This document shows, piece by piece, positions 2,354 through 32,390 of a DNA stretch of 32,390 nucleotides. Under the pieces are notes generated by a model. That model saw only the letters and a program-made list of their open reading frames with translations, did no database searches and was not told where the DNA came from. The position numbers were made by a program, and so were the translations under genes. The DNA comes from Ignavibacteria bacterium CG2_30_36_16. GTDB lineage: Bacteria > Bacteroidota > Ignavibacteria > Ignavibacteriales > Ignavibacteriaceae. Numbering within the stretch: position 1 is the first letter of the stretch; each line of letters starts with the position of its first letter. Location: positions 1-32,390 of the forward strand of contig MNYQ01000241.1 in the NCBI GenBank assembly GCA_001873185.1. The letters run 5' to 3'.

Positions 2354-4500
2354 TGTTCGGTTTCGAAAAAGTAAATTTAACATTTTCTATTAATGCGGTG
2401 TGGTTTGTCATCGCATTTTTATTATTAGCCGGTTATACTTTTTATATTTACCGCTATACCGTGCCACAGGTACGCCCTTTTACAAAAATTGCTTTGGTAA
2501 CTTTAAGAATATTTGCGCTGACAGCAATTTTGTTTTTTATATTTGAACCAGTACTTACTTTAACTAGTAAAACAATTCTTCAACCCGTTAATCTTTTTTT
2601 TATTGATAATTCCAGATCGATAAAAATTGATGACGGCACAAACAGGGAAGTCAAAGTAAAACAATTTACCGATAACATGCTGAACTCAAATGTACAGGCA
2701 AGCAGTGGATTATACATTTTCGGCAATAAAGTTGAAACCTTAAGCGGTGATTCTATACGTCGAATTAATTTCAATGAGGGTTCAACTAACTTCTCAAACA
2801 TAATTGCAAGTGTAAAAAAAGACGAGCGAAATATTGCTTCTATTACTATTGTAAGCGATGGCGTAGTTACTTCGGGGGCAAAACCTGTGTATGAAGCAGA
2901 GAAGCTTAACATCCCAATTTTTACTGTCGGTTTGGGAGATACTACGGTTAAAAAAGATATCCGGATCAGAAATGTTTTATACAACGAATTTATTTACATC
3001 GAAACACCGACCACAATTTTGGCAGAAATAAGCAGCAATGGTTTTGAAAGCAAACAGGTAATTACATCGTTGTTTGAAAATGATGTTGTTGTTGAGCAAA
3101 AAAACATTGTGCTGTCGGGTGAGGGTTTTCAAAGTATAAATTTTGAATATAAACCTCAAAAAGGCGGGGAAAAAAGGATGGCTGTTACTGTCACCACTCT
3201 TCCCGAAGAAGAGAATACTGCTAATAACAAAAAAACATTTTATATAAACGTTCTTGATAATAAGTTAAAAGTGCTGCTTATCTCCGGGGCGCCTTCGAAC
3301 GATTTGTCTTTTATCCGCAGCAGCCTTCAACTTAATAAAAATATTTCGATAAACTCCATAACTGTATACGGACAAAACAAAATTCTTGAAGGCATTAACA
3401 CAAACACGGCTATTGACAGTGCCGATATCCTTTTTTTAATCGGATTCCCTTCAAAGCAAACTCCACAAACGCTTCTCCAGAAGACGATTGATGCAGTAAA
3501 CAATAAAGATAAACCTTTCTTTTTTCTGATTGAAAACTCAACCGATTATGAAATGTTAAAGCAATTTCGAAATTCTCTTTCATTCAGCATACAGCAAAAT
3601 GCAGTTAGAAATTATGAAGTTCAACCGAACATTAATGCGGGCGAAACTGATAATCCACTTCTTAAAAATAATGCCGAAAATTCTGTTGCCGCATGGAACA
3701 GTTTGCCTCCGGTTTTTCAGCCTCCGCACGAGTTTAAGGCTAAACCCGGAAGCAGTATTTTATCCGACGTTAGAATTAATAATGTGCCGGTAAACAAACC
3801 GCTGATTTTAACACGACGAATAAGCAACAGCCGCAGTATCAGTGTGCTCGCTTATGATATTTGGAAATGGAAGCTTCAAACATCTTCGAAAAATTTAAAT
3901 TTATTCGACAGCTTTATTCAAAATTCCATTCAATGGCTTAATACAGGAAACGAGCAGAAGCAAGTAAGAATATCTACATATAAGAGATTATATTCGCTGG
4001 GAGAAACAGTTGAATTTACCGCACAAGTTTATAACGAAACATTTAATCCTGTGTCGGATGCTGAAGTGAGAGTTACAATTAAAGGACATGATAGATCAGA
4101 GATTCTACTCAACCCGCGCGGGAGCGGTTTGTACGAAGGTTCATTCAACTCAAATACGCCGGGTGATTATTTATACGAAGGTACTGCAAAATTGAACAAT
4201 CGAAATCTTGGGAGCGACCGGGGCAGTTTTAACATCGGCGCTTTCGACGTTGAAAAAATTGAAGACCGGATGGATTATGAATTTTTAAATTCTCTTTCTG
4301 AAATATCGGGCGGTAAATTTTATTTTGCAGGACAGGATGATGATTTATTCTTCCGGCTAAAAAACATTTCCGAACACTCTTCAAAAGAAAAAATAACGAT
4401 AAAAGAATTGAGCCTTTGGGCAAACGAATGGATGATGATTGCGGCAATTTTATTTTTTTCGGTTGAATGGTTTATCCGTAAACGAGCCGGAATGCTTTAG
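2353..4500 (+). CDS. Membrane protein with VWA-like domain (glutamine-amidotransferase-like, BatA/YegL type)
   Basis: N-terminal and C-terminal TM segments; VWA-like region with FIDNSRSI (DxSxS) and IVSDGVVTSG; TAATG overlap with phzF. Confidence 0.7.
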   Translation: MFGFEKVNLTFSINAVWFVIAFLLLAGYTFYIYRYTVPQVRPFTKIALVTLRIFALTAILFFIFEPVLTLTSKTILQPVNLFFIDNSRSIKIDDGTNREVKVKQFTDNMLNSNVQASSGLYIFGNKVETLSGDSIRRINFNEGSTNFSNIIASVKKDERNIASITIVSDGVVTSGAKPVYEAEKLNIPIFTVGLGDTTVKKDIRIRNVLYNEFIYIETPTTILAEISSNGFESKQVITSLFENDVVVEQKNIVLSGEGFQSINFEYKPQKGGEKRMAVTVTTLPEEENTANNKKTFYINVLDNKLKVLLISGAPSNDLSFIRSSLQLNKNISINSITVYGQNKILEGINTNTAIDSADILFLIGFPSKQTPQTLLQKTIDAVNNKDKPFFFLIENSTDYEMLKQFRNSLSFSIQQNAVRNYEVQPNINAGETDNPLLKNNAENSVAAWNSLPPVFQPPHEFKAKPGSSILSDVRINNVPVNKPLILTRRISNSRSISVLAYDIWKWKLQTSSKNLNLFDSFIQNSIQWLNTGNEQKQVRISTYKRLYSLGETVEFTAQVYNETFNPVSDAEVRVTIKGHDRSEILLNPRGSGLYEGSFNSNTPGDYLYEGTAKLNNRNLGSDRGSFNIGAFDVEKIEDRMDYEFLNSLSEISGGKFYFAGQDDDLFFRLKNISEHSSKEKITIKELSLWANEWMMIAAILFFSVEWFIRKRAGML

Positions 4501-7963: not shown

Positions 7964-8111
7964 GTGCATCTCTAATCCGTTAGTTAACGAACAATGACAC
8001 AAGAGAAAAGTCATTGCGAGGGCAGCAGCACGAAGCAATCTAAATATTCTACTTTGGGATTGCTTCACTCGAAGACTCGTTCGCAATGACACTTTGTTTT
8101 TGGAGATGCCC
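7964..8111. repeat. MITE-like element containing a GCAATGAC/GAAGCAATC palindromic repeat (copy 1)
   Basis: Ends GTGCATCTC (7964-7972) / GAGATGCCC (8103-8111), flanked by ATGA (7960-7963 and 8112-8115). Internal inverted arms GTCATTGCGAGGGCAGCAGCACGAAGCAATC (8010-8040) / GATTGCTTCACTCGAAGACTCGTTCGCAATGAC (8058-8090). Confidence 0.7.
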
Positions 8112-30598: not shown

Positions 30599-30780
30599 GG
30601 ACATCTCTAAAAATCCGTTATCTAATGGATCGCAATGACTTTTCTCTTGTGTTATTGCGAACGAGTCTTCGAGTGAAGCAATCTGATTCTTTTGTTGAGA
30701 TTGCTTCGTGCTGCTGCCCTCGCAATGACTGTTCTTTTGTGTCATTGCGAATCCCGCATGCGGGAAGTGAAGCAATCTTT
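30599..30780. repeat. GCAATGAC/GAAGCAATC palindromic repeat cluster (copy 2, three alternating units)
   Basis: Units GTTATTGCGAACGAGTCTTCGAGTGAAGCAATC (30651-30683), GATTGCTTCGTGCTGCTGCCCTCGCAATGAC (30699-30729), GTCATTGCGAATCCCGCATGCGGGAAGTGAAGCAATC (30741-30777). Begins GGACATCTC, as in copy 1; right end not recognisable. Confidence 0.75.
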
Positions 30781-30846
30781 TGTTTTTAATTCAAAATTGA
30801 TATCACTTCATCCGGCAGCCGCCAATCTGCATAAGGTGACCTAATA

Positions 30847-30961
30847 ACTAACTTTACGCATGAAGTTCTCACTCTTGCTCGTGATCGTAATCTTGCTCGG
30901 TTTTAAATCCGATAAAGAGCACGATTACGGTCAAGATCAAGACAACGTGCGTAACATGACT
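30847..30961. repeat. MITE-like element A with TTACGCA ends and hexamer-repeat hairpin core
   Basis: Ends ACTAACTTTACGCA (30847-30860) / TGCGTAACATGACT (30948-30961), flanked by TAATA (30842-30846 and 30962-30966). Core contains GATTAC/GATCAC/GAGCAA-type hexamers in inverted arms around TTTTAAAT. Confidence 0.7.
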
Positions 30962-32064
30962 TAATAATTCTTCTCCGCTATTGCTGTCCATTCATGCGTC
31001 TGAATTTGAAATTCTTTGTACGATTCATAAACCTTTTTACTTTGCGCATCTGCATTAGTAATTTCGTTAAACACTTGTAAAGCGAATTCCTTTAACTTGT
31101 TCAACACATCATCTGGAAAATCTTTTAAGTTTATTTTGTCTTCGTTTTTCAATTTCAAAAGATATTCAGCGTTTTTTTGCTCGAATCCTGAAAGCAACTG
31201 CATAGTTACCGCAGAAGCTGCACATCGTATAATTGATTGAAGATCTGCAGGTAAACTTTCATAAGCATTTTTATTTACAATTAATTCTAAAGTACCGGTT
31301 GGTTCCTGCCACCCGGGCGAATAATAATATTTCGCAATCTTATGAAATCCCATTAGATAATCGTGATAGGGACCAATCCACTCAAGTGCATCAATTACTC
31401 CACGCTCAAGGTTTGTGTAAAGTTCGCTGCCGGGGGAAAGAATTGCTGAAGCTCCCGCTTTTGTTATTACCTTTCCGCCGAGACCGGGCATTCGAATTTT
31501 TAATCCTTGTAAATCTGCTAACGAATTTATTTCTTTATTGAACCATCCTCCCATCTGTCCGCCTGTATTTCCGCAAACAAAAGGAATAAGATTATGCGGC
31601 GCATAAGTTTGTTCCCATAGTTGAATTCCGCCTCCATCGAATAGCCATGCGTTAGTCTGTTGTGTGTTCATACCGAAAGGTATTCCGGAAAAAAATTGAG
31701 CGGCAGGAATTTTCCCCGCCCAATAATAAGGTGCACCGTGTCCCATTTCAGCAACGCCTTGAGAAACCGCATCAAACGTCTCTAATGCAGGCACAAGTTC
31801 ACCGCCGCCATAAACCTGTATCTTCAATCTTCCGCCGGACATTTCGTCAATCCATACCGCCATCTTATCGGCATACTCGCCAAGCAGCGGAAAATGTGGC
31901 GACCAGGTAGTTACCATTCTCCAGTTAAAAGTTTTTCCGCTATAACCGGAAGTATTATTTTTTTTCTCATTGTTTCCGCACCCGGGAATTCCCGAAGCGA
32001 CAGTAAATGCAGCCGCAGAAAAAGTTGCTGCTTTAATAAAATCTCTGCGTTCTAATTTTTTCAT
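30961..32064 (-). CDS. TRAP transporter substrate-binding protein, DctP family (apparently an orphan)
   Basis: RRDFIKAATFSAAAF Tat-like/lipoprotein signal; WSPHFPLLGEYADKMAVWIDEMSGGRLKIQVYGGGELVPALETFDAVSQGVAEMGH; WIGPYHDYLMGFHKIAKYYY. Confidence 0.93.
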   Translation of the reverse strand: MKKLERRDFIKAATFSAAAFTVASGIPGCGNNEKKNNTSGYSGKTFNWRMVTTWSPHFPLLGEYADKMAVWIDEMSGGRLKIQVYGGGELVPALETFDAVSQGVAEMGHGAPYYWAGKIPAAQFFSGIPFGMNTQQTNAWLFDGGGIQLWEQTYAPHNLIPFVCGNTGGQMGGWFNKEINSLADLQGLKIRMPGLGGKVITKAGASAILSPGSELYTNLERGVIDALEWIGPYHDYLMGFHKIAKYYYSPGWQEPTGTLELIVNKNAYESLPADLQSIIRCAASAVTMQLLSGFEQKNAEYLLKLKNEDKINLKDFPDDVLNKLKEFALQVFNEITNADAQSKKVYESYKEFQIQTHEWTAIAEKNY

Positions 32065-32203
32065 TGCATGCCTTTTTATTTAAGAAACTGACTGATTTTG
32101 AAATTAAATTTTTGAGTTAACTTATCTAATACCTATTTGCATTAAAACTTGATTTGCGATTTTTTTATATGTCTTGAGCGACTTATTAATATTAACATAA
32201 TTA

Positions 32204-32347
32204 ACTGAAGTTACGCACTTTGTGATTTCTTAGTGTCTTTGTGACTTGGTGGCAAAAAGAAAGTATAAAAAATGAGCCACAAAGGCACTAAGTCACCAAG
32301 TTTCACTAAGAATATTTTATGAAATTCAACTCATGCGTAACTTCAGT
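32204..32347. repeat. MITE-like element B with perfect 14-bp TIRs and CACnAAGn-repeat hairpin core
   Basis: ACTGAAGTTACGCA (32204-32217) / TGCGTAACTTCAGT (32334-32347), perfect inverted repeat flanked by AATTA (32199-32203 and 32348-32352). Core arms CTTAGTGTCTTTGTGACTTGGTGGC / GCCACAAAGGCACTAAGTCACCAAG. Confidence 0.8.
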
Positions 32348-32390
32348 AATTAATGTAAATAAAAATATAAAATTAAACGATATTATACCT

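Follow-up and report, generated by a model that had tools for sequence, protein, structure and literature searches.

Short hairpin elements near a dctP-like gene in an Ignavibacteria genome very probably share only their 13-bp ends with YREK DDE insertion sequences

Two short palindromic sequences lie on either side of a solute-binding protein gene in Ignavibacteria bacterium CG2_30_36_16 (assembly GCA_001873185.1, contig MNYQ01000241.1), raising the question of whether they are mobile elements and, if so, how unrelated interiors came to carry the same ends. The stretch analyzed, here called the window, comprises 32,390 nucleotides. An initial annotation described the two sequences as MITE-like elements with matched asymmetric ends, inverted around the gene and moved by one transposase. 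We conclude that they are very probably MITEs that share only 13-bp ends with insertion sequences encoding a YREK DDE transposase, insert at 7-bp targets, carry hairpin cores and would be moved in trans. The features of the locus are listed below; the gene label dctP is that of the initial annotation, and we take it as putative.

30630-30827, no strand: core of element C, CATTGCGA...GAAGCAATC hairpin repeats
30752-30765, no strand: mini-palindrome TCCCGCATGCGGGA inside the hairpin repeat of C
30828-30840, minus strand: right end of C, GTCACCTTATGCA
30841-30847, no strand: 7-bp target copy CTAATAA, between C and A
30848-30960, plus strand: element A, 113 bp long, of the STCACC-TTACGCA subfamily; its ends are degenerate and its core is an imperfect inverted repeat
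30961-30967, no strand: right 7-bp target copy TTAATAA of A, including the dctP stop codon
30961-32064, minus strand: dctP-like solute-binding protein gene (ORF of 367 aa), between A and B and part of neither
32198-32204, no strand: left 7-bp target copy TAATTAA of B
32205-32346, plus strand: element B, 142 bp long, with a perfect 13-mer at each end and inverted arms (CTTAGTG/CACNAAG) as its core
32347-32353, no strand: right 7-bp target copy TAATTAA of B

The sequence confirms that A and B stand where they were first described, with TTACGCA ends and unrelated palindromic cores. Both elements are real, but their limits were redrawn, from 30847-30961 to 30848-30960 for A and from 32204-32347 to 32205-32346 for B. 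The end is also longer than the 7-base TTACGCA: in both elements it is a 13-mer of the form [C/G]TNANN-TTACGCA. B has CTGAAGTTACGCA at both ends, and the ends of A, CTAACTTTACGCA and GTCATGTTACGCA, are a degenerate form of STCACCTTACGCA. Two end subfamilies can be distinguished, CTGAAG-TTACGCA (B) and STCACC-TTACGCA (A and C). CTGAAGTTACGCA occurs 14 times in the genome and STCACCTTACGCA has 76 exact ends; the reversed pattern of each has none. Among 80 genomes of the family, CTGAAG-type ends are present in 24 and STCACC-type ends in 31, and for either type the reversed-pattern control gave a single match, in one genome.

The proposed asymmetry of the ends did not survive comparison with other copies. 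The signature GTTACGCAC[T/G]TTGT had been read as common to A and B, but the other four copies of A in the genome have TTACGCAAAGTGTCTTG or a near variant at the right end, and alignment of all five copies shows that CACGTTGT is a divergence private to the window copy. The opposite pair of ends has little in common beyond TTACGCATGA. The matched asymmetric ends in opposite orientation are therefore probably a coincidence.

The frequency of end pairs was compared with chance in a 0.48 Mb sample of the genome, made up of the window and alternate contigs from C1 through C79, truncated at 20 kb. Nine elements were found in which a TTACGCA end pair is flanked by a 7-bp duplication (at least 6/7 identical), and 25 permuted 7-mers gave 0 or 1 element each (mean 0.12). 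Pairs of TTACGCA are thus commoner than expected. All nine fall outside genes, as far as a crude gene call based on ORFs can show. The length of the duplication was analyzed at 88 closest exact-end pairs; these, like the 78 elements discussed below, come from loci fetched for carrying the ends and describe the elements, the test against chance being the sample with permuted 7-mers. The duplication is perfect over 7 bp at 51 of the 88 pairs. At least six of seven positions match at 64 pairs in register, versus 9 or fewer in any shifted register, and the consensus is TTANTAA (57 perfect cases). The peak at 7 rules out the 5-bp duplications suggested at the outset.

Element A is flanked by CTAATAA and TTAATAA, which are identical at six of seven positions. 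Because its ends and one flanking 7-mer contain mismatches, A is probably old. Its other copies lie at loci L001 to L004 (L001, L002, L003 and L004), and the L001 copy, which represents its core cluster, has a fold z of -7.5. In the window, A sits at a convergent gene pair, beside the dctP stop codon. That codon is contained in the right 7-mer, so that insertion kept the stop of the gene intact. Stop-codon targeting as a rule was rejected: a long frame stops at the target copy in only 6 of 114 tested flanks, so the position of A is not representative. Matches to the dctP-like protein are present in 17 other genomes of the family (E <= 1e-60), the best being 53-72% identical, with the 72% match partial. 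At these orthologs the flanks looked too diverged for the alignment of empty A or B sites. In one of them (L179, genome G003), the 3' end of the gene is adjoined by a different solo hairpin, GTCATTCCCACGAAAGTGGGAATC. No Rfam family was found across the window.

Element B is better preserved. Its flanking 7-mers, TAATTAA and TAATTAA, are identical at all seven positions, and it is found at nine places in the genome, eight as long matches (90-100% identity) and one truncated; the intact copies are flanked by duplications of 7-8 bp. One of the nine lies on contig C150, where the window locus was assembled a second time with the same insertion in place. Positions 3028-3202 of this contig (G000:C150) are 99% identical to window positions 32190-32365, over B and its flanks. 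C150 is apparently a strain variant of the locus at the right end of the window, and would extend it.

Element C lies directly to the left of A, and its right end abuts the 7-mer that also bounds A. Its left end was not found. The core, which was also read as a CATTGCGA...CAATC hairpin repeat, is 87% identical over 151 bp to the core of another element in the same genome and was aligned with L155, L153 and L136. The mini-palindrome TCCCGCATGCGGGA within it has 6 copies with at most one mismatch in the 0.48 Mb sample, none in long ORFs. An element is likewise stacked against A at L001/L155, and at L004 the neighbor is a different one. Tandem pairs in which two elements alternate with three identical 7-mers occur at L043, in the same genome, and at L346. 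These pairs fit a history in which one element came first and another then inserted into its target copy; we infer this order of events from the arrangement.

That the swarm moves is well supported at the level of sequence comparison, by duplicated target bases and by one empty site. The empty site concerns an element of a relative, not A or B: for the element at 10389-10510 of L344 in genome G017, the orthologous site in G021 is empty and has a single 7-mer. The global alignment score of the two loci is 61.5 when the element and one 7-mer are removed and 35.5 when both are kept. The right flank alone scores 19.5, a modest match compared with a maximum of 17 in 1000 shuffles. For the elements on contig C59, empty sites were sought in a genome of the same genus, where the element region was unmatched.

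What could move such elements is indicated by four autonomous elements, apparently intact, that have the same ends and each encode a DDE transposase; they were found in the relatives G020, G011, G070 and G078:

G020:C4, 5892-6965: 1074 bp, CTGAAG ends, perfect duplication TAAATAA (7/7)
G011:C345, 4664-5838: 1175 bp, CTGAAG ends, duplication 6/7
G070:C224 (L303), 1418-2592: about 1175 bp from the end positions, CTCACC ends, duplication 6/7 by inspection
G078:C21 (L301), 765-1945: about 1181 bp from the end positions, CTCACG ends, duplication 6/7 by inspection

When the printed ends of the MITEs and the autonomous elements are compared, similarity stops at the 13-mer plus a few A. The residues Y272, R275, E279 and K286 (Y-2-R-3-E-6-K) are invariant in all four transposases. 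Relative to the G070 protein, identity is 73% for G078, 59% for G011 and 28% for G020. An IS701_2 model (NF049921, NCBIfam transpos_IS701_2) fits the transposases far better than IS4 models do: G070, G078 and G011 score 326.7, 338.5 and 328.8 bits against a cut-off of 250, and G020 scores 186 bits, below that cut-off. Among solved structures only weak matches to Tn5 were obtained (E = 0.2). Close matches to the G020 transposase come, in a named collection, under the title 'MAG: Bacteroidetes bacterium'. The window's own genome, whose assembly is 88% complete, yielded no member of this transposase group; repeats often drop out of assemblies. Because the end subfamilies of A and B differ, the proposed single transposase is better read as a group of related transposases (59-73% identical, one about 28%). 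A 339-bp element at L311 (779-1117, G028:C211) has CTCACG ends and a transposase fragment beside a CTCGTCTCGGAGACG hairpin, and is possibly an intermediate between insertion sequence and hairpin MITE.

In contrast to the ends, the cores are diverse. The loci fetched from this and related genomes yield 78 elements with 26 unrelated core clusters (BLAST matches joined by single linkage, at 75% identity and 60% coverage of the shorter core). With the 7-bp duplications, the relative's empty site and the autonomous carriers, this upholds the modular non-autonomous family proposed initially. Most of the cores fold. With one representative per cluster, the median z is -4.3 and 81% fall below -2; control DNA of equal length, from outside the elements at the same loci, has a median z of 0.13 with 4.6% below -2 (Mann-Whitney p = 2e-14). 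A homologous 96-bp core is found under both end classes in G017, 97-100% identical within a class and 75-79% between classes. In the printed sequences of this core, compared by eye and uncounted, a change in one arm (TTGTTTC to TTGATTC) is mirrored in the other (GAAACAA to GAATCAA).

The elements lie between genes, and A in particular at a convergent pair beside the dctP stop, as ancestral terminators or regulatory hairpins would if they looked element-like by chance. Such an origin is highly improbable, and for the class it is refuted by near-identical copies at unrelated sites, the 7-bp duplications and the empty site in a relative. No terminator-like site was found at A or B, which speaks against a terminator function for either. 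REP and REPIN sequences are palindromic repeats that have neither terminal-inverted-repeat ends nor target duplications. A and B resemble them in being small, intergenic and palindromic with paired inverted arms, and similar solo hairpins are common in the genome. Their 13-bp inverted ends, their 7-bp target duplications and the existence of DDE insertion sequences with the same ends make it very doubtful, however, that A and B are palindromes of this type moved by a RAYT (Y1) transposase. For the solo hairpins, a REP/REPIN origin is possible.

A further explanation holds that the hairpin cores are the real mobile units, which land in or are captured by TTACGCA elements, with the ends as one vehicle. 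It accounts for the B-like, CATTGCGA and CCGTTAGCTAACGG hairpins, which also occur solo, with TTACGCA ends absent nearby. It would also account for L124, where a 20-bp mini-hairpin, CCTGCCTGACGGAAGGCAGG, sits in the GTCATTCCCAC hairpin loop and is missing from the related core of L084 (both in G005), and for L265, L264 and L298, where one host repeat has different mini-hairpins at the same place. The solo hairpins could, however, be relics of decayed elements, and they have no established target duplication or boundary. At 32 mini-hairpins, flank complementarity (-5.6) is not clearly greater than that of permuted pairs (-5.0, sd 0.6). We regard this explanation as rather unlikely.

In the reading we favor, a transposase would act in trans, by cut-and-paste, on DNA between two such 13-bp ends, with one member of the group acting on STCACC-type ends (A, C) and another on CTGAAG-type ends (B). 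New elements may form where a palindromic repeat that already exists becomes flanked by end-like 13-mers; its palindromic form would then be maintained by selection or by homogenization of the arms. The hairpin bias could thus reflect palindrome capture, selection for structure or arm homogenization. A more specific version, which we offer tentatively, is that dispersed hairpin repeats and nested mini-palindromes are repeatedly captured between 13-bp ends, and that the hairpin is needed for the success of an element, for example through cruciform formation, arm homogenization or shielding of neighboring genes. If such hierarchical capture takes place, it would provide a mobilization route for some unexplained bacterial hairpin repeats.

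The swarm that includes A, B and C consists of type II MITEs, and the transposase group they go with is IS4/IS701-like. In type II MITEs, conservation with autonomous insertion sequences is limited to the terminal inverted repeats (PMC10969869). The elements here are likewise short and non-coding, with similarity to insertion sequences confined to the ends; A and B measure 113 and 142 bp, and the swarm is intergenic, with 13-bp ends, target duplications and an empty site in one relative. What separates them from type II MITEs as described (PMC10969869) is that a single end system serves 26 or more core clusters across the family, unrelated to one another and mostly hairpins, and that one element can stack in tandem in the target copy of another. 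Among the open-licence papers searched, none was found that describes such a combination. TIMEs, which are miniature elements derived from Tn3, are also non-autonomous, with conserved ends, mosaic cores and AT-rich targets, but they have 38-bp Tn3-family ends, 5- or 6-bp duplications and cores of functional modules (PMC4133298) in place of the 13-bp ends, 7-bp duplications and hairpin cores seen here. The BrickBuilt MITE of Porphyromonas gingivalis is similarly intergenic and has a repeat core bounded by small inverted repeats; that core is a tandem 23-bp minisatellite (PMC4596501), whereas the swarm has many unrelated hairpin cores.

The placement of the transposases is mixed. By score, three of the four carriers belong with IS701, exceeding the curated cut-off of NF049921 (326.7-338.5 versus 250 bits). 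IS701 elements, however, make 4-bp duplications, mostly lack the tyrosine of YREK and are 1400-1550 bp long (PMC2266710), whereas the carriers here have 7-bp duplications, a complete Y-2-R-3-E-6-K and lengths of 1.07-1.18 kb. ISPepr1, a subgroup of IS4, has 5'-CT ends, AT-rich duplications of 7-8 bp and YREK, at 1500-1600 bp (PMC2266710). The carriers share the 5'-CT ends, which are near YT-AA-YTT---A, the 7-8 bp AT-rich duplications and YREK, but they are shorter, and their transposases are nearer to IS701_2 than to IS4 models. In their 7-bp duplications, full YREK and CT ends the carriers are a better fit to IS4/ISPepr1 than to IS701; their length fits neither. This suggests IS4/ISPepr1-like features in a transposase group that is filed under IS701.

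Many bacterial genomes contain families of short intergenic hairpin repeats for which, to our knowledge, no spreading route is known. The hairpins described here are bounded by the same ends that identified insertion sequences carry, with target duplications and, in a relative, an empty site, which makes their movement testable. What sets the swarm apart is the variety of unrelated hairpin cores that one minimal end system carries; some of these cores also occur solo. Judging from the sequences, this suggests that a 13-bp end can suffice to mobilize unrelated cores.

Solo and nested hairpins also appear elsewhere in the material. At 7975-8103 of the window, a solo CATTGCGA / CCGTTAG hairpin repeat is 83% identical to an element core, with no TTACGCA ends nearby. 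A preference of mini-hairpins for hairpin tips was considered and was not significant over 32 sites. Mini-palindromes were also noted at L273, L289 and other loci, and those of the TCCGTTAGCTAACGGA and TCCCGCATGCGGGA types often sit within other repeats. TCCGTTAGCTAACGGA has 27 copies with at most one mismatch in the 0.48 Mb sample, all of them outside long ORFs.
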